In this document: piece after piece, positions 4,501-23,786 of the stretch | How the letters are laid out: the number at the start of each line of letters is the position of its first letter | Position numbering within the stretch: the first letter of the stretch is position 1 | DNA from: a virus | DNA length: 24,743 nt | Strand: one strand, 5' to 3' | IMG/VR virus record: IMGVR_UViG_3300007540_000098 | Coordinates: 1 to 24,743 of that record | The notes under the pieces: model-generated | Seen by the model: the letters and a program-made list of their open reading frames with translations, nothing else | Database searches by the model: none | What the model was told of the DNA's origin: nothing | Program-made: the position numbers and the translations under genes

Positions 4501-4845
4501 ATGAATAATACTGATTACGGAAGAGGGTTTTCTACCCTAAACATAAACTTTTCCAACACCAAACCAAATGAAAATACCAAAATAAGCGGCACACACATTA
4601 ATTTCAGAGGTAAAATTGTTGGAAGTCCATCTCAAAATATTACCATCCAAGGTGGTGATGATAAGGGAATATATGCAGTAAATTCAAATGAAGCTGGTGG
4701 TTTTTATATGACACAAACCCAAAGAATAACACTTATGGAAATTCTTAAGGGTATGGCAGCAACTTCAGATAATGGCAACATCTCTTCAAATAACGGTCAA
4801 CTTGAAGAGATGTGTAACACCATATATAAGAACTATTGTAATTAG
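4501..4845 (+). CDS. Hypothetical late protein, probable virion component
   Basis: A 114-residue protein and the only plus-strand gene in the left 11 kb. The first two thirds are rich in Asn, Gly, Thr and Ser with beta-strand spacing (NINFSNTKPNENTKISGTH), and a repeat-like TKISG/NITIQGG pattern; the C-terminus is helical (LEEMCNTIYKNYCN). It follows an exact late-promoter motif and a strong AAAAAGGAG site. Expression with late genes suggests a structural or decoration role, but I do not recognise the family. Its stop overlaps the stop of the convergent endolysin gene. Confidence 0.65.
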   Translation: MNNTDYGRGFSTLNINFSNTKPNENTKISGTHINFRGKIVGSPSQNITIQGGDDKGIYAVNSNEAGGFYMTQTQRITLMEILKGMAATSDNGNISSNNGQLEEMCNTIYKNYCN

Positions 4846-6035: not shown

Positions 6036-6296
6036 TTATACCTCATCACCATCTGCCATACCAATTGCCTGAAGATACAAATCAAGAATTGCTTCTTGTT
6101 CAGCACGTTCATCAGCATCCAGTTTACGAATTTGAATAATCTTTTTGATTGCCTTTGTATCAAATCCGGTAGCCTTGGCTTCACCATATACTTCCTTGAT
6201 ATCATCACTAATAGTTTTCTTGTCTTCTTCCAAATGTTCAACACGTTCAATAAAAGACTTAAGTTGTTCATGTGCTACAGTTGCAGTATTATTCAT
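6036..6296 (-). CDS. GapR / DUF2312-family DNA-binding protein
   Basis: An 86-residue protein that closely follows the DUF2312 (GapR) pattern: [18 protein letters not shown], then [21 protein letters not shown], then [16 protein letters not shown] and a final [10 protein letters not shown]. In Caulobacter, GapR is a nucleoid-associated protein that binds overtwisted AT-rich DNA and stimulates topoisomerases. The family is largely alphaproteobacterial and its phages carry copies. In the phage it could relieve torsion during replication or act on the host nucleoid. ATG 6296 is chosen, with GGAG 8 bases upstream; the earlier part of the frame lies in the kinase gene. It overlaps the kinase stop, so it is coupled to it. 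Confidence 0.88.
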
Positions 6297-6807
6297 GTTT
6301 TTCTCCATTTTTGATTCTGATGATTTTATCAAAACCTTCATCTTCAGTTACATCTTCAAAATTATTGTACATACTTTCTATTATATCAAGTCCAATAATT
6401 TTATCTGGTCTATTTTCAACCATCCTGTTATGAAGGAGAGTAGGACTCTCTTTCTCAAAGACAATTGCATAAGTCTCAAATTCATCTTTGTTAATTTTAT
6501 CAAACTTCTGTTTGCGTGACTTAGATGTAAGATTGGTTTGATCCCAAAATACAAATTCAACATCAGCAGCCAAAGCCTTTTCAAGAGCTTCGTACATAAT
6601 TCTGGTTGAATCCTTAATATGGTTTTTGAAAATTTCATTATAAGTTTTACCACACTTTTTTGCGATATCTTCAATATATGCATCAGTACTCAAAACAGTG
6701 ATATTACTCATATGGACACCATCATCTAGCAAAGACTTAACCATAGTCCATAATGCGGATGATTTTCCAGATGCAGGTAGACCGACAAACATAAAAAAGA
6801 ATTTCAT
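6289..6807 (-). CDS. Polynucleotide-kinase-like P-loop protein
   Basis: A 172-residue kinase of the T4 Pnk / AAA_33 type. GLPASGKS (residues 9-16) is the Walker A loop, STDAY near 40-44 contributes a catalytic aspartate, and [16 protein letters not shown] (about 87-102) matches the D-x-T-N-L strand and the following basic segment of this family. Its likely reaction is transfer of phosphate from ATP to a 5'-OH end of RNA or DNA. T4 Pnk continues into a HAD 3'-phosphatase domain, which is absent here: the protein ends right after the kinase. Its neighbours are a tRNA gene and RNA ligase 1 upstream, which supports a role in tRNA repair. The start has AAGGA 8 bases before the ATG. Confidence 0.78.
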
Positions 6808-6825
6808 AATATATCCTTATTTAAT

Positions 6826-6901
6826 TGGAGCTTCTAGATGGACTCGAACCATCAACTCAAATTTAGAAGATTTGTGTTATATCCAGTTTCACTATAGAAG
6901 C
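6826..6901 (-). tRNA. tRNA-Arg (anticodon UCU)
   Basis: A 76-base cloverleaf on the minus strand. The 5' acceptor strand GCTTCTA pairs with TAGAAGC, then discriminator T and an encoded CCA. The anticodon stem is CAAAT/ATTTG around loop CTTCTAA, giving anticodon TCT. The T arm is GATGG-TTCGAGT-CCATC. The D stem GTGA/TAAC has one G-A mismatch. It reads AGA and AGG, codons favoured in AT-rich phage genes. It lies between the RNA ligase and kinase genes, on the same strand, with its own promoter-like sequence at 6910-6938. Confidence 0.93.
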
Positions 6902-6909
6902 GTATTATA

Positions 6910-6938
6910 TTTATACATCATATTCTCTAAGTTGTAAA
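6910..6938 (-). promoter_or_regulatory. Sigma70-like early promoter for tRNA and kinase
   Basis: On the minus strand TTTACA (6938-6933) and TATAAA (6915-6910) are 17 bases apart, just upstream of the tRNA. The -10 region also contains an exact TATAAATA (6915-6908), so the same site could serve late sigma. It shares TTTACAAC and AATATGAT with the promoter at 8401-8429, which supports a phage-specific early promoter. Confidence 0.6.
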
Positions 6939-6977
6939 CGGATAATTTCATTGTATATCCTTAGTTAAGAAATGGAA

Positions 6978-8129
6978 TCACCAATCAAGGGTGATTCCAT
7001 TTGCTTTCTTGAAGTCAACCCATTTCCTACCAGATGATGTATTGTTGATAACACCATCTTTGATTATATCATTAATATTGTCTACGATATAACCAAAATC
7101 ATCAAAATATTTAAACATCACTGATCGAACAAAATGATGAACATTTTTAGATGAAAGAGCAAAACCCTTTTTATCTAATTTTTCACGTTCAACTCTATCT
7201 ACCTCAGAACATATTCCAACATACAAATTAACATATAATTCATCATTCAATTTTTGAGAAAATACATTAACTTTTGATTGTTGATTTTCATCCAACATTG
7301 GAATCAAATCATCGATATCACCTTGCATGATAAGCTTAACAACATCCTTTTCATAATCAAAATATGACTTCACCTTATGAAGCTGGCAATACCAATCACT
7401 CTTAATTTTGAATCTATGTCCATCTTCAAAAACAATAACATAACCCTCTTCAGTAGTTAACCCACGTGTATGAGTCATGAGTTTTTCCATGTTCTCAAAT
7501 GTACCATCATAAGCTTTCACACATGGCACTCCATAATATTCAGCCAATGCTTTCATCTCATTATATGCCATATATTCACCACTATTCTTACTACGAATAC
7601 CAGTAAGAACAAGTTGTGGTACGTCATATCCAATAACGATTCTGTTGTTTGGCCCCATCCATTCAAAGATAGGCTGATTCATTGGCAGGCAGTCAGATAC
7701 CATATCAACATAAGATGGAGTTACAAATGCAGCAACCTCATCATGGAAATCAATAGCACCAACCTTTGTTGCCCAATATATGGAACCATCATCAAGAGAA
7801 AATGGGGCAATCATAGACCCATCCAATTTTTCCAAAATTACATGCTTCTTATCCAAATCAATGGATTTTGTTTCTTCACGCTCATCAACATTGAAAAATT
7901 TATGATATGCTCTACGCGCAATAAAACCATCCTTGTAAAAGATAAGACCACGAAATTCACGCAATACTGCAGTATCCCAATCGGTAACTGGTGGAAACGT
8001 ATCGGTAAATGCTACGACATAATCAATAACATCAAAATCATCTTTCTCATAAAGACGAAAATCATCTCTATCTTCAAGCAGATGTTTCACTTCATCGATA
8101 TGAGTGATTACTGGAAATGCATAATTCAT
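6978..8129 (-). CDS. rnlA: RNA ligase 1 (T4 RnlA-like)
   Basis: A 383-residue ATP-dependent RNA ligase close in length to T4 Rnl1 (374). Motif I is E-K101-L-D-G-S, whose lysine takes the AMP; REFRGLIF near 57-64 and EWMG near 156-159 fit further conserved positions. EEGYVIVFED fits motif IV and FKIKSDWYCQLHK motif V. The C-terminal part, about 260-383, matches the all-helical tRNA-specificity domain of Rnl1. The enzyme seals 5'-phosphate and 3'-OH RNA ends and in T4 repairs tRNA cut by host anticodon nucleases. It is followed on the same strand by tRNA-Arg and a kinase, forming a compact repair cassette. Confidence 0.9.
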   Translation of the reverse strand: MNYAFPVITHIDEVKHLLEDRDDFRLYEKDDFDVIDYVVAFTDTFPPVTDWDTAVLREFRGLIFYKDGFIARRAYHKFFNVDEREETKSIDLDKKHVILEKLDGSMIAPFSLDDGSIYWATKVGAIDFHDEVAAFVTPSYVDMVSDCLPMNQPIFEWMGPNNRIVIGYDVPQLVLTGIRSKNSGEYMAYNEMKALAEYYGVPCVKAYDGTFENMEKLMTHTRGLTTEEGYVIVFEDGHRFKIKSDWYCQLHKVKSYFDYEKDVVKLIMQGDIDDLIPMLDENQQSKVNVFSQKLNDELYVNLYVGICSEVDRVEREKLDKKGFALSSKNVHHFVRSVMFKYFDDFGYIVDNINDIIKDGVINNTSSGRKWVDFKKANGITLDW

Positions 8130-10530: not shown

Positions 10531-11109
10531 TTAACGATCATTATTATTTATAGATTTTTTCACTATTTCCATGACTTTTTTATCATCTATTTCAATAAAA
10601 CTATCATATTTCCTTATCAAGAGGAATAAATCATCAAACAAAAATCTAGCTTTTATTCTCGATTCCCAATAGGATGTAACAGCATATACATGCTCCAACA
10701 CCACCAAAGTCTCTAATTCCAATCTACCTGATAAGTATAAATTCAAAATTTTAGAACTACCATCAATTATTTTTATTGCATCTCTAATATCTTTAAACTG
10801 TTTTATGTCATTTGTAAAGTAATAATATAACGCATTGTTGATTTTTTTATATCTATGATAATTAGCATCATTAAAAGTATCAGGGAACGCTTTTGGGTCT
10901 ATTATTAGATTTGCAAATATAAAACCAAATGGATCATTTCGCTTACTTATGATATTAAACACATGCTTATCATCACGCTTTTCATAAGAATCATACCCAC
11001 CTTTTGTGTGGCCTTTCTGTTCAATAAAATCATATTTTACACTAGTCAAATGTAGTCTCATAGCTATATAAAACTTCCAACATTTGAATGGAGTCTTAGC
11101 TGTTGTCAT
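10531..11109 (-). CDS. 59: gp59 helicase loader
   Basis: A 192-residue homologue of T4 gp59 (217 residues), which loads the gp41 helicase onto gp32-coated forks and recombination intermediates. The N-terminal pattern FKCWKFYIAMRLHLTSVKYDFIEQKG and YEKRDDKHVFNIISKR align well with T4's KLYLMIKQHMNGKYDVIKYN and KRRDKYFFQKLSEKY, followed by a mostly helical C-terminal domain. Its place between gp33 and gp32 is the T4 order and strengthens the call. Its start overlaps the gp33 stop. A TATAAATA near its 3' end (10545-10552) could drive late gp32 expression. Confidence 0.85.
   Translation of the reverse strand: MTTAKTPFKCWKFYIAMRLHLTSVKYDFIEQKGHTKGGYDSYEKRDDKHVFNIISKRNDPFGFIFANLIIDPKAFPDTFNDANYHRYKKINNALYYYFTNDIKQFKDIRDAIKIIDGSSKILNLYLSGRLELETLVVLEHVYAVTSYWESRIKARFLFDDLFLLIRKYDSFIEIDDKKVMEIVKKSINNNDR
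10545..10552 (-). promoter_or_regulatory. Possible late promoter for gp32
   Basis: An exact TATAAATA on the minus strand in the last codons of gp59, about 73 bases before the gp32 start. T4 gene 32 is also transcribed late. A chance occurrence is possible. Confidence 0.35.
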
Positions 11110-11886: not shown

Positions 11887-12324
11887 ATGAAAATTGAAGA
11901 TATTATAAAAATGTGGTCTGAAGATTCGAATATAGATAAGAATGATACTATAGAAGAAAGCGTTAGAACCATAAGACTACATGCAAAATACTATGAAATA
12001 TTCATTAGAGAAAGACTAAAACTAGCTCAGATGGATGAAGAGAAAAACACCATCTTGTATTTGAAGAATGAATACTACAATGGTGATTTAGATTTTGAAA
12101 CGCTTAAAGAACATGGTTGGCCTCAATTCCAAAAGAAAATTCTAAAAAGTGATATTGAACGACATATAAAGGCTGATAAAGATGTAATAAATTTCAACCT
12201 AAAATATGCAGTTCAAAAAGAAAAAGCACTTGCATTACAAGAAATAATCAAGTCGTTAAACCAGAGAACATTCCACATCAAAAATATAAATGATGCTAAA
12301 AAATTTGCAGCGGGAGAATATTAA
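11887..12324 (+). CDS. uvsY: UvsY recombination mediator
   Basis: A 145-residue homologue of T4 UvsY (137). It is helical and charged, with the T4-like end RTFHIKNINDAKKFAAGEY (T4: FAIKHIQDMRAFEAGK) and LYLKNEYYNGDLDF and SDIERHIKADKDV in the middle, matching T4's LKARLDYYSGRGD and SADKDV. UvsY helps load the UvsX recombinase on gp32-coated ssDNA and acts in recombination-dependent replication. It is followed by uvsW after one base; the two form a T4-like pair. UvsX itself is not in the window. Confidence 0.88.
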   Translation: MKIEDIIKMWSEDSNIDKNDTIEESVRTIRLHAKYYEIFIRERLKLAQMDEEKNTILYLKNEYYNGDLDFETLKEHGWPQFQKKILKSDIERHIKADKDVINFNLKYAVQKEKALALQEIIKSLNQRTFHIKNINDAKKFAAGEY

Positions 12325-12325
12325 A

Positions 12326-13843
12326 ATGTCAGTAATGGATGCAGATATTGTAATTAAACAAGTTGATGAAGTACATTGTAAGATAATTGGTGATAAAGCT
12401 GATCTGTTACCTATTCAGGAACATTTTACATTTTTTGCTGAAGATTATAGATGGCATCCAAGGTTTAAAAGTGGGTTCTGGGATGGTAAAATCCGTCTTC
12501 TGAATATGAATACGAAATTGTTACTCAAAGGTCTTATTCCAAATTTGATTAAATTCTGTGATGATAATGACATAACATACAATCTTGATGATAATTTGTT
12601 TCCTGAAGTCAACTATGAATTAAATGATGCTGATATAGTAAAAATGTATGAGACATTAAAGGCTCCATATACACCAAAAACATATCAGATCGATGCAGTT
12701 AAACAATCAATTAATTCAAATAGAGGAATCATTTTATCTCCAACTGCATCAGGTAAATCATATTTCTTATATGGTATTGCAAGATTCTATCAAAAAATGG
12801 GACTTAAGGTTTTAATATTAGTTCATAGAGCTGGTCTTGTAAAACAGTTAATTGATGATAATTTTTGTGAAGAATACGATTGTAACAGAAATTCCTTTAC
12901 ATCACATAAAATATATGCTGGTAAAGAAAAGGATGTTATTTGTGATATAACTGCTTCAACATGGCAATCTATCTATAAAATGCCAGCAGATTTTTATCAC
13001 AAATATGATGTTGTAATAGCAGATGAAGTTCATGCATGGACTTCGAAATCATGTATAGCAATCATGGAAGCCTGTAAGCATATTGTTTACAGACATGGTA
13101 CATCTGGTACACTACAAGATATCAAAGAAAAAAGACTTAGTCTTGAAGGTTTATTTGGACCACCTATCAAAGTTGCAGATACGGTTGAATTGATGGAAAG
13201 TGGAGATATAGCCAAACTTAAGATCAAGGGTTTAATTTTCAATTATCCATTGGATGAATGTAAACATATTTCAACACCTATTATATTAAAAAATGATGAT
13301 AGTGGACGAAAAGCCAAATCCGTTGCACAAAAAATGTATGTTCGTGAAACAAAGTTCATTGAAGAGCACCCAAAAAGACATAAAGTTTTAATAGATTTGA
13401 TAAACAAATATAAAGGTAATACACTTGTGGCCTTTGTACATACTGATCATGGTAAACGAATTTATGATGATATCAAGGGTGATAAATTTTATATTGATGG
13501 TAGTGTACCAATCGAAAAGAGAGCACAATATCAAAAATATATGGATACTCATAATAATGTTACAGGTGTTGTTTCAATAGGTACATTTGCTGAAGGTATA
13601 AATATTAAGAACGTCAACAGAGTTATATTAGCTGGTTTATTAAAATCTAAAGTCAAACTATTACAATTGATAGGTAGAGGATTAAGACTATCTGCTATTA
13701 AATCAGCAGTGATATTCATCGATATTGGTGATAATTTAAGATATAAAAAACATAACAATTATGCTCTTAATCATTGTATTGAACGTTATAAGAGATACAA
13801 AGAGGAAAAATTTGAACTAGAAATTATAGAAAAGGATATTTAA
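12326..13843 (+). CDS. uvsW: UvsW DNA/RNA helicase
   Basis: A 505-residue SF2 helicase matching T4 UvsW in length (about 503). An N-terminal domain with RWHPRFKSGFWDGKIRLLN is typical of UvsW. Motif I is SPTASGKS (about 138-145), motif II DEVH (about 233-236), and QLIGRGLRLS is motif VI. UvsW unwinds R-loops and branch-migrates recombination intermediates, switching T4 from origin to recombination-driven replication. ATG 12326 begins one base after the uvsY stop; the frame's upstream part lies inside uvsY. It overlaps the downstream gene by one base. Confidence 0.93.
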   Translation: MSVMDADIVIKQVDEVHCKIIGDKADLLPIQEHFTFFAEDYRWHPRFKSGFWDGKIRLLNMNTKLLLKGLIPNLIKFCDDNDITYNLDDNLFPEVNYELNDADIVKMYETLKAPYTPKTYQIDAVKQSINSNRGIILSPTASGKSYFLYGIARFYQKMGLKVLILVHRAGLVKQLIDDNFCEEYDCNRNSFTSHKIYAGKEKDVICDITASTWQSIYKMPADFYHKYDVVIADEVHAWTSKSCIAIMEACKHIVYRHGTSGTLQDIKEKRLSLEGLFGPPIKVADTVELMESGDIAKLKIKGLIFNYPLDECKHISTPIILKNDDSGRKAKSVAQKMYVRETKFIEEHPKRHKVLIDLINKYKGNTLVAFVHTDHGKRIYDDIKGDKFYIDGSVPIEKRAQYQKYMDTHNNVTGVVSIGTFAEGINIKNVNRVILAGLLKSKVKLLQLIGRGLRLSAIKSAVIFIDIGDNLRYKKHNNYALNHCIERYKRYKEEKFELEIIEKDI

Positions 13844-14211
13844 TGTCAAATATTAAGTGTTATAAACTAATTAATGGTCTTACTATTATAGGTGAACATA
13901 TATCTAGAAATATTTTTAATTCAAAAATTAAGTTTCCAATAGCTGTAGATATATCACTAACTGAAGGTTATGATACAATGATTATGATTGATAAGTTCTG
14001 TAAATTTGATGGCAGTGATGATAGTAAGTATAACATTAAAAACAATCATATTATAGTATCATATGAACCATCTGAAAGTATGATTCAGAGTTATTATAAA
14101 TTTAAAACTAATATCATTAATAGTTATGATAAATCAGTTACATCTGTACTTAATAGTTATTTAATACAAACAGATAACGTTGAATCTGAATCTATATCAA
14201 CTATTCATTGA
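13843..14211 (+). CDS. Hypothetical protein, possibly Sm-like
   Basis: A 122-residue protein whose start, CYKLINGLTIIGEHIS, resembles the opening strand pair of phage Sm-like folds (x-L-x-N-G-x-x-I-I-G-E). The remainder is strand-rich with Ile/Asn/Ser runs, ending in a helical segment. It starts at the stop of uvsW (TAATG), so it is translationally coupled. No function is established. It is the last gene before the non-coding island. Confidence 0.6.
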   Translation: MSNIKCYKLINGLTIIGEHISRNIFNSKIKFPIAVDISLTEGYDTMIMIDKFCKFDGSDDSKYNIKNNHIIVSYEPSESMIQSYYKFKTNIINSYDKSVTSVLNSYLIQTDNVESESISTIH

Positions 14212-14218
14212 CGATAAT

Positions 14219-14236
14219 AAGACCGCTTGCGGTCTT
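14219..14236. terminator. Bidirectional hairpin terminator
   Basis: AAGACCG and CGGTCTT pair around CTTG, a 7-bp stem with 4-base loop just after the last uvsW-operon gene. The T-run on either side is weak. It could stop plus-strand transcripts of the uvsW operon and minus-strand transcripts from the promoter at 14562-14591. Confidence 0.7.
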
Positions 14237-14240
14237 CATT

Positions 14241-14269
14241 ATATTCATGGAACGTAGTGGAATGAATAT
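14241..14269 (+). repeat. Conserved-core hairpin element, copy 4 (plus orientation)
   Basis: ATATTCAT (14241-14248) pairs with ATGAATAT (14262-14269) around the 13-base core GGAACGTAGTGGA. It has the same 8 + 13 + 8 layout as the other copies but a different stem sequence, and the core lies on the opposite strand. Confidence 0.8.
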
Positions 14270-14301
14270 TTTCATAAAAACTTTATACATACTTATATAA
14301 C

Positions 14302-14373
14302 AATTTATTGGTATATTATACTTATTTAATAGTTTTGTTGTAATGTTATTGTTCCACTGCGTTCCACAATAAC
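14302..14373. repeat. 72-base direct repeat, copy A
   Basis: Identical to 14412-14483 over 72 bases. The 5' part is AT-rich and the 3' part is the conserved-core hairpin at 14345-14373. The two copies start 110 bases apart. Confidence 0.95.
14345..14373 (-). repeat. Conserved-core hairpin element, copy 3
   Basis: GTTATTGT (14345-14352) and ACAATAAC (14366-14373) form an 8-bp stem. Read on the minus strand the 13 bases between are GGAACGCAGTGGA. Confidence 0.85.
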
Positions 14374-14411
14374 CCTCGCTACGCTCAGATTTGATTTAGA
14401 TTTATACTTTG

Positions 14412-14483
14412 AATTTATTGGTATATTATACTTATTTAATAGTTTTGTTGTAATGTTATTGTTCCACTGCGTTCCACAATAAC
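14412..14483. repeat. 72-base direct repeat, copy B
   Basis: Exact second copy of 14302-14373, carrying its own conserved-core hairpin (14455-14483). A partial third unit follows: the hairpin at 14492-14518 and CTTATTTAATAG at 14523-14534. Confidence 0.95.
14455..14483 (-). repeat. Conserved-core hairpin element, copy 2
   Basis: An 8-bp stem, GTTATTGT/ACAATAAC, around the minus-strand core GGAACGCAGTGGA, identical to copy 3. Confidence 0.85.
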
Positions 14484-14491
14484 AAGCGTGT

Positions 14492-14518
14492 TTATTGTTC
14501 CACTGCGTTCCACAATAA
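14492..14518 (-). repeat. Conserved-core hairpin element, copy 1
   Basis: TTATTGT (14492-14498) and ACAATAA (14512-14518) form a 7-bp stem around the same core; the eighth pair is lost. It lies closest to the minus-strand promoter. Confidence 0.82.
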
Positions 14519-14561
14519 CCAGCTTATTTAATAGATTTGATTTTATTGTTTTTATTTAAAT

Positions 14562-14591
14562 ATTATAATCTTTATACAATTCGCCTGTCAA
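14562..14591 (-). promoter_or_regulatory. Consensus sigma70 promoter with palindrome at the -35
   Basis: On the minus strand an exact TTGACA (14591-14586) and an exact TATAAT (14567-14562) are 18 bases apart. Transcription would start near 14555 and run left through all four hairpin elements to the hairpin at 14219-14236. The -35 hexamer lies in the centre of the inverted repeat ATTCGC/GCGAAT (14579-14584 and 14592-14597), a natural operator position. Confidence 0.75.
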
Positions 14592-14666
14592 GCGAATATG
14601 CATTTTTGTTTTATGCATTGTATATGTAAACCTATTTAAAGGATTAAGGCAGGCCCGGCGAATTGT
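14576..14666 (+). other. Long-range inverted repeat with competing local hairpin
   Basis: ACAATTCGCC (14576-14585) pairs perfectly with GGCGAATTGT (14657-14666), and the latter is followed by CCTTTTTATT. The 5' arm can instead form a local hairpin, ATTCGC/GCGAAT (14579-14597). The two structures exclude each other. An inner hairpin ATGCAT/ATGCAT (14598-14618) lies between the arms. Confidence 0.65.
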
Positions 14667-14905
14667 CCTTTTTATTACAGTATTTTCGGGCGCAATCATT
14701 ATCTTAGCTTATACAACAACTAAGTGATTTGTAGGGTTTGTATCACTACTCTCTGGAGACTTTTATTTTAAGGTTCTTGTCTACCTTCAGAACCACTATA
14801 TATCTTACTATAGAATTTTTAGGAAGCCGTCTCGTATTCGACTTGATGTACATCTCATTAATTGCCTGCACCAGCATGATATTTAAGTATATTTGTATTT
14901 TTTGC

Positions 14906-14934
14906 TTTACATTCATAACATAAATGTATATATT
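14906..14934 (+). promoter_or_regulatory. Sigma70-like promoter before the 31-aa ORF and gp55
   Basis: TTTACA (14906-14911) and TATATT (14929-14934) are 17 bases apart, 25 bases before the ATG at 14959. It probably drives the membrane peptide and the gp55-47-46 operon. Confidence 0.6.
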
Positions 14935-14958: not shown

Positions 14959-15054
14959 ATGATGTATTTCATATTTGTAGGATTTTTATTCACATTATCA
15001 ACGTTTGTTGGAGCCTATCTTTTATATTATCATGGAGACAGCGACATCCTATAA
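14959..15054 (+). CDS. Small single-span membrane peptide, 31 residues
   Basis: The frame ATG ATG TAT TTC to CTA TAA encodes 31 residues. Residues 3-24 are hydrophobic (FIFVGFLFTLSTFVGAYLLY) and form one likely membrane span; the end HGDSDIL is short and polar. AAAGGA lies 8 bases before the ATG and a promoter sits at 14906-14934, so translation is likely. Its role is unknown; small membrane peptides in T4-like phages include lysis and superinfection modulators, but nothing identifies this one. Confidence 0.6.
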   Translation: MMYFIFVGFLFTLSTFVGAYLLYYHGDSDIL

Positions 15055-15088: not shown

Positions 15089-15619
15089 ATGTTAGTTAAA
15101 AAAACAAGAAAAAGACTAAAAAACAGGGATAAATCTAGGGATTATGTGGATGGTCCTACATTACAGAAAAATTTAGTTGATTGGTACGAATCTGGTGAAA
15201 AAGAAGCACCAATGATCGTATATAATGCATTATTACAGATAATTAATAGATTAGCAAGTAGTGGTAAATTTTCTGGTTATTCATATATTGATGAAATGAA
15301 GGAAGATGCAACTGTGGCTGTACTCGCTGCTTTGATGCATAAAAAATATAAAATAAATCATGAAAATCCAAATCCTTTCGCATATTTTACACAAATTGCA
15401 TTCAATGCTTTTATTAATGTTATAAATATCGAAAAGAAACAATCATATTTAAAACACAAATCGTTGTTAATACATCAGCATGAATCATATATGAATAATG
15501 AACCAACAAATAAATATGACGATATACTTGATTATGATTTAATTGAGAAATTTGAAAAAAAGAAAGAAAAGAAGCCTAAAAAAGTAAAAAATGAATTGGC
15601 TAATTTTGAAGGAGATTAA
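15089..15619 (+). CDS. 55: gp55 late sigma factor
   Basis: A 176-residue homologue of T4 gp55 (185), the sigma-like factor that directs RNA polymerase to TATAAATA late promoters. The match is clearest at KFSGYSYIDEMKEDATVAVLA (about 60-80; T4 [21 protein letters not shown]) and NPNPFAYFTQIAFNAFINVI (about 93-112; T4 [20 protein letters not shown]). The C-terminus is very basic (KKKEKKPKKVKNELANFEGD) and lacks the SLDFLYE clamp-binding end of T4. AAAAGGAG precedes ATG 15089; an overlapping ATG at 15085 leads to a stop at once. Adjacent gp47/46 follow the T4 order. Confidence 0.88.
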   Translation: MLVKKTRKRLKNRDKSRDYVDGPTLQKNLVDWYESGEKEAPMIVYNALLQIINRLASSGKFSGYSYIDEMKEDATVAVLAALMHKKYKINHENPNPFAYFTQIAFNAFINVINIEKKQSYLKHKSLLIHQHESYMNNEPTNKYDDILDYDLIEKFEKKKEKKPKKVKNELANFEGD

Positions 15620-23107: not shown

Positions 23108-23120
23108 TACTTGTGTATTT

Positions 23121-23160
23121 TTATATATACTATGATATAATGAATACCTAAAGGAGAAGT
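23121..23160 (+). repeat. 40-base direct repeat, left copy (promoter + RBS)
   Basis: Identical to 23747-23786. It holds the extended -10 TGATATAAT (TATAAT at 23136-23141) and AAGGAGAAGT. The repeat stops right after the ribosome-binding site, and the ATG of the Mom-like gene lies about 10 bases beyond GGAG, longer than usual. Confidence 0.95.
23136..23141 (+). promoter_or_regulatory. Extended -10 promoter of the Mom-like gene
   Basis: TATAAT with TGA directly upstream, giving TGNTATAAT. No good -35 is seen. A second identical copy precedes gp45 at 23762-23767. Confidence 0.65.
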
Positions 23161-23733: not shown

Positions 23734-23746
23734 AACAATGTATACT

Positions 23747-23786
23747 TTATATATACTATGATATAATGAATACCTAAAGGAGAAGT
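23747..23786 (+). repeat. 40-base direct repeat, right copy (promoter + RBS)
   Basis: Exact copy of 23121-23160, offset 626 bases. Here the AAGGAG is 5 bases before the gp45 ATG, an ideal spacing, so this copy looks like the native one. TATAAT is at 23762-23767 with TGA before it. Confidence 0.95.

Follow-up and report, generated by a model that had tools for sequence, protein, structure and literature searches.

What is encoded in the long gene-free gap ahead of the late sigma factor gene of a T4-like phage, and from which strand is it read? The initial annotation of this DNA had placed there a consensus minus-strand promoter, from which a regulatory RNA some 335 nt long would be read. The stretch analysed (the window) comes from a T4-like phage contig, which is a virus record of 24,743 bases. 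Its left part is mostly minus strand, and its right part is a run of plus-strand genes in the order tail tube, uvsY, uvsW, a small ORF (phrog_527), a gap of 877 bp, gp55, gp47, gp46, and others. The uvsW helicase occupies 12290–13843 (+). The small conserved ORF follows it at 13843–14211 (+) and converges on the RNA proposed below, and the gp55-like late sigma factor (PHROG 234, E 1e-24) lies at 15089–15619 (+). A hidden gene in the gap was ruled out, as no frame was conserved beyond the core that is conserved as DNA. ARAGORN called no tRNA or tmRNA in the gap, and Rfam searches of the gap in the window and in three relatives returned only sub-threshold chance matches. When the window was scanned at the Rfam gathering threshold, the sole match was a tRNA at 6829–6901. 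It may be noted that, by sequence reading, a candidate polynucleotide kinase-like gene, a tRNA-Arg(TCT), and an adjoining RNA-ligase-like gene lie at 6289–8129, as in tRNA repair.

The promoter of the initial annotation consists of a -35-like TTGACA (14586–14591, minus strand) and a -10-like TATAAT (14562–14567, minus strand) separated by 18 bases. It was correctly regarded as uncommon: the minus-strand site at 14591–14562 matched the consensus hexamers at 12/12 positions and was the only such sigma70-type site with a spacing of 16–18 in the window, about 0.047 being expected per window from hexamer counts, with 0 found in 40 Markov simulations. Sites near the consensus are common in AT-rich sequence (77 found, 78.5 expected). 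The promoter is indeed directed into a repeat array, made up of a 72-nt direct repeat present twice and a 36-nt hairpin unit present three times, and no minus-strand ORF of more than 29 amino acids lies wholly inside 14200–14555, in agreement with the absence of an evident frame. The site does stand amid plus-strand core genes, as the initial annotation had it, but a transcript from it would converge on the uvsW operon. The -10 box lies in the palindrome ATTATAAT, and so the same TATAAT exists on the plus strand at 14564–14569. In the three related lineages described below, the minus-strand 12/12 site had no counterpart, the best match in the same interval being 9/12. Elsewhere in the window, two different genes are preceded by exact copies of one 41-bp stretch that contains a TATAAT box and a ribosome-binding site (23120–23160 and 23746–23786).

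The array (14345–14518) contains the hairpin GTTATTGT-TCCACTGCGTTCC-ACAATAAC at 14345–14373 and again at 14455–14483, with a shorter copy at 14492–14518; these three copies are accompanied by the 72-nt duplication, which is exact. At 14242–14268 there is a fourth hairpin, whose loop is of the same type, runs in the reverse orientation, and sits on a different stem; the hairpin AAGACCGCTTGCGGTCTT at 14219–14236 closes the region. The loop GGA-ACGNAGT-GGA, a GNA triloop with GGA/GGA flanks, is thus carried on stems of differing sequence within 14242–14518. The same loop stands on two long unrelated stems in the contig L034, so that the loop is kept and not the stem; a search of viral contigs with a 14-mer of the array loop gave mostly chance matches in genes, and the same loop only in L034. 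Between the nearly identical genomes L124 and L128, the array hairpin TCGCT(G/C)CGTAG(C/G)AGCGA shows a compensatory C-G to G-C swap. At 4834–4860 of L128, a hairpin loop is inverted relative to L127 (TCTTCATGG vs. CCATGAAGA) within identical arms, which suggests strand switching at the palindrome.

Could the array itself be the RNA, read early from the sigma70 promoter at 14591–14562 as a regulatory transcript of ~335 nt? The perfect hexamers, for which chance predicts only 0.05 sites, and an array that folds better than its shuffles (z -2.9) are what such an RNA would lead one to expect. We nevertheless find it quite improbable: no equivalent promoter was present in three lineages, the array aligned with its counterparts in other lineages without any common sequence, and its palindromes fold on both strands. 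The hairpin at 14219–14236, taken in the initial annotation as the end of the transcript, makes a weak minus-strand terminator, as its tail ATTATCGTC lacks a U-run on that strand. The scan for intrinsic terminators listed it for the plus strand only, and the region scanned had no more such sites than its shuffles. Nor was a start near 14555 supported; the promoter lies at the 3′ end of the conserved body described below and is itself not conserved. Nothing was found in favour of a sponge or a decoy. More probably, the repeat array is a bidirectional terminator facing the converging uvsW operon, and the TTGACA/TATAAT site has either arisen by chance or serves the array as an additional promoter in this lineage alone. 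The most eye-catching promoter of a sequence is not necessarily the functional one.

Relatives were sought by uvsW, gp47, and DNA-pattern searches, the window's own record being left out of the pattern searches. Three further lineages were obtained: L123 (IMGVR 3300038701_002693), the group L124/L127/L128, and L213 (3300038701_003553). The order uvsW, small ORF, long gene-free gap, gp55 operon is common to all four lineages; the gap ahead of the gp55 unit measures ~520–780 bp in the three relatives and is usually shorter outside this clade. Alignment of the gaps revealed a conserved gene-free block of ~310 bp at 14576–14885, which we propose to be the body of a minus-strand RNA, and which sits upstream of the TTGACA promoter in the minus direction. 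Its conserved parts are a core at ~14645–14686 and a segment at 14824–14884. The core (plus strand TTAAGG..CCTTTTTATTACAGTATTTT) is the most conserved sequence; the conserved position and this core are direct observations. Patterns of 20 fixed bases each were searched in 2.9 million viral contigs, where the block-core pattern matched only L123 and the L124 group, and the pattern from the gp55 side only L213. A looser core pattern matched ~20 further contigs, none of which encoded uvsW, gp55, gp47, or gp46, and these were taken as chance matches. In the best of them, the only one checked in detail, the match fell within a long reading frame that probably belongs to a tape-measure gene. No match was obtained for the gap DNA among 50,697 phage records, or for the core pattern in GTDB genomes.

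The close pair L127 and L128 allowed the block to be compared with its surroundings. Over 425 nt, the block was 98.8% identical, vs. 89.5% for uvsY, 90.7% for uvsW, and 94.4% for the small ORF. The array region was 92.9% identical with 51 gapped columns, and the 72 bases behind the block were 88.9% identical. Recent local exchange may have added to the identity of the block, because a HAD-like ORF beside it was also 98.6% identical. The simplest account of the gap would be that it is drifting AT-rich DNA with a chance promoter and terminator hairpins only, and holds no RNA gene. The abundance of near-consensus sites, at just the number expected, fits this account. It is hard to square with a block that is more conserved than the genes around it and is found at a conserved position only, and we regard it as very improbable.

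On the side of the block away from the array, a perfect box TATAAATAA was found on the minus strand between the block and the downstream gene in 4/4 lineages (window 15065, L213 5548, L123 3324, L128 5394). Late promoters of T4 carry TATAAATA at -13 to -6, where it is recognised by gp55 (PMC1524935). In the window, the box TATAAATA, followed by A, occupies 15065–15058, and the expected start is near 15052; the same T4-type late box was directly observed at the homologous sites in three lineages. The joint probability of these boxes in shuffled sequence was 8.6e-6 for four short intervals and 6e-4 for whole gaps, in a test devised after the box had been seen. Among 128 other T4-like gp55 loci, none had TATAAATAA on that strand within 320 bp upstream, many of these loci having short gaps and hence less AT-rich sequence in which the box could occur. 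The box lies ~170 nt from the block in the window, vs. roughly 45–60 nt in the relatives. It is separated from the block there by a hydrophobic 31-aa ORF at 14959–15054 (+), found between the block and gp55 in the window lineage only. A one-mismatch box, TACAAATA, lies nearer the block at 14890–14897 (minus strand), and may provide an alternative start in the window lineage. Late boxes also precede uvsY, a gp32-like SSB, and other genes of the window; the box at 10552–10545 (minus strand), upstream of the gp32-like SSB, and one at 1188 (minus strand) in L213 have almost identical contexts.

The gp55 unit has a promoter of its own. A sigma70-like plus-strand site with 10/12 matches and a spacer of 17 (TTTACA-17-TATATT, 14906–14934) recurs in all four lineages at the same place before the gp55 unit. 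In the window, the late box faces this promoter, whereas in the three relatives the pair stands back to back.

The folding of the block was examined as minus-strand RNA. At 14824–14844, the hairpin AAGUCG-AAUACGAGA-CGGCUU has a nine-base loop, and its counterpart in L213 is UAAUGG-AAUACGAGA-CCAUUA. In this comparison the stem covaries: the loop is identical at 9/9 positions and 6/6 pairs are kept, with three double changes and one change from U-G to U-A. The same search gave six pairs on the minus strand vs. 2–3 on the plus strand. Mononucleotide shuffles reached six pairs in 0/500 cases in one run and 1/200 in a repeat, and a 3′-letter shuffle, a weak test with two sequences, reached the observed value in 60/500. 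An 8-bp hairpin of L127/L128 shows one compensatory pair and a change from U-U to U-G, and is paired only on the minus strand; with two sequences, the 3′-letter shuffle reached its observed value in 253/500. The covariation evidence thus comprises two helices, one with three double changes and the other with one, from two sequences each. The hairpins of the window, L123, and L127 have U-G pairs where the plus strand would have A-C. They favour the minus strand, which we infer with moderate support.

Further local structures were found in the block. A hairpin beside the core motif (14693–14731, minus strand) is replaced by a hairpin with a different stem at this place in other lineages (combined z -3.8, a post hoc value computed on the plus strand). 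The segments 14576–14585 and 14657–14666 are perfect complements (ACAATTCGCC/GGCGAATTGT) and could form the two arms of a 10-bp long-range helix on the minus strand. A hairpin scan placed ATTCGCTTGACAGGCGAAT at 14579–14597, at the 3′ end of the proposed RNA, and this hairpin holds the TTGACA. The folding energy of the whole block on the minus strand, relative to shuffles, was moderately low in L213 (z -2.6) and L123 (-2.4), but did not stand out in the window (-0.36) or in L128 (-0.8). No consensus fold was obtained by automatic alignment of all lineages, because the sequences are too divergent. RNA structure is therefore supported locally but not globally.

These results bear on two other readings of the block. 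It could be a plus-strand RNA, or a long leader, made from the TATAAT at 14564–14569 upstream of gp55. The palindrome ATTATAAT would put this -10 box six bases before 14576, just where the 10-bp long-range helix begins, and the core motif is readable on either strand. Yet the best plus-strand -35 was only 9/12, no plus-strand start is conserved, and the U-G pairs speak for the opposite strand. The gp55 unit has its separate promoter after the block in four lineages, and a HAD-like gene intervenes between the block and gp55 in L124/L128. A plus-strand reading had initially been taken from the palindromic TATAAT and was dropped on the evidence of the late box and the U-G pairs; we consider it unlikely. 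A function at the level of DNA, for instance as an origin of replication or a recombination site, would account for a conserved, gene-free block adjoining uvsY/uvsW and gp47/gp46, for the strong palindromes of the array, and for the loop inverted between L127 and L128. It would not be expected to bring strand-biased U-G pairs and a late box, and the GC-skew switch of the window lies near 11–11.5 kb and not at the gp55 gap. This reading is likewise unlikely.

We judge, with moderate confidence, that the gap between the uvsW operon and gp55 carries a leftward, late, gp55-dependent noncoding RNA gene, specific to one clade of T4-like phages. The relatives thus support a minus-strand noncoding RNA in the gap as first annotated, but with another start, timing, and extent (late box 15065–15058, body ~14885–14576). 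Late in infection, RNA polymerase with gp55 would start at the minus-strand TATAAATA just ahead of the gp55 gene and read through the conserved block. Transcription would then pass the hairpin with TTGACA, in the 3′ part of the RNA, and stop in the array that follows (14518–14219), where the converging uvsW transcript would also be stopped. Transcription, both RNA ends, and any function are proposed here from sequence comparison. A folded, stand-alone RNA acting in trans late in infection is favoured over an antisense RNA, because the conserved part is intergenic and the RNA would end before any conserved coding gene. Transcription may run head-on into the sigma70-like promoter of gp55 in the window lineage; such an arrangement is not conserved, because the promoters are back to back in the other lineages.

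A bolder version of this proposal is tentative and rather doubtful. The RNA would represent a new family of structured phage RNAs of ~300–500 nt. Its promoter, which directly adjoins the gp55 gene, would be turned on by gp55, and the RNA would act in trans during late infection; its transcription might also, in the window lineage, shut off the early promoter of gp55 head-on. Possible roles in trans would include assembly, packaging, or the disarming of host defence. Few noncoding RNAs are known in T4-like phages, though these are among the best studied phage groups, and a gene for a late RNA, retained next to the late sigma factor in divergent lineages, would, if real, be a new component of the phage life cycle.

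No description of this RNA was found in the open-licence literature. GOLLD and ROOL often occur in phages or prophages. Together with OLE, they are among the long structured bacterial RNAs treated in PMC12286853; the RNA proposed here is shorter, lies in another position, and has no Rfam match. The eight-base box in the window is identical to that of T4 late promoters (PMC1524935), but faces leftward into a gene-free block. In T4 and its relatives, a conserved bidirectional terminator follows uvsW.1 between converging transcripts (PMC1524935), and here, too, hairpins would end the uvsW operon between converging transcripts; there, however, it is a protein gene that is transcribed from the opposite side, whereas here it would be a noncoding RNA gene, and repeated hairpins in an array would make up the terminator. 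The nearest known kind is CfrI of cyanophage S-PM2, an RNA of ~225 nt that lies antisense both to psbA and to a gene for a homing endonuclease (PMC2984593). Unlike CfrI, the present RNA would lie between genes, next to gp55, and would not be antisense to any conserved gene. Like CfrI, which is expressed in infection (PMC2984593), it would be a noncoding RNA of a T4-like phage.
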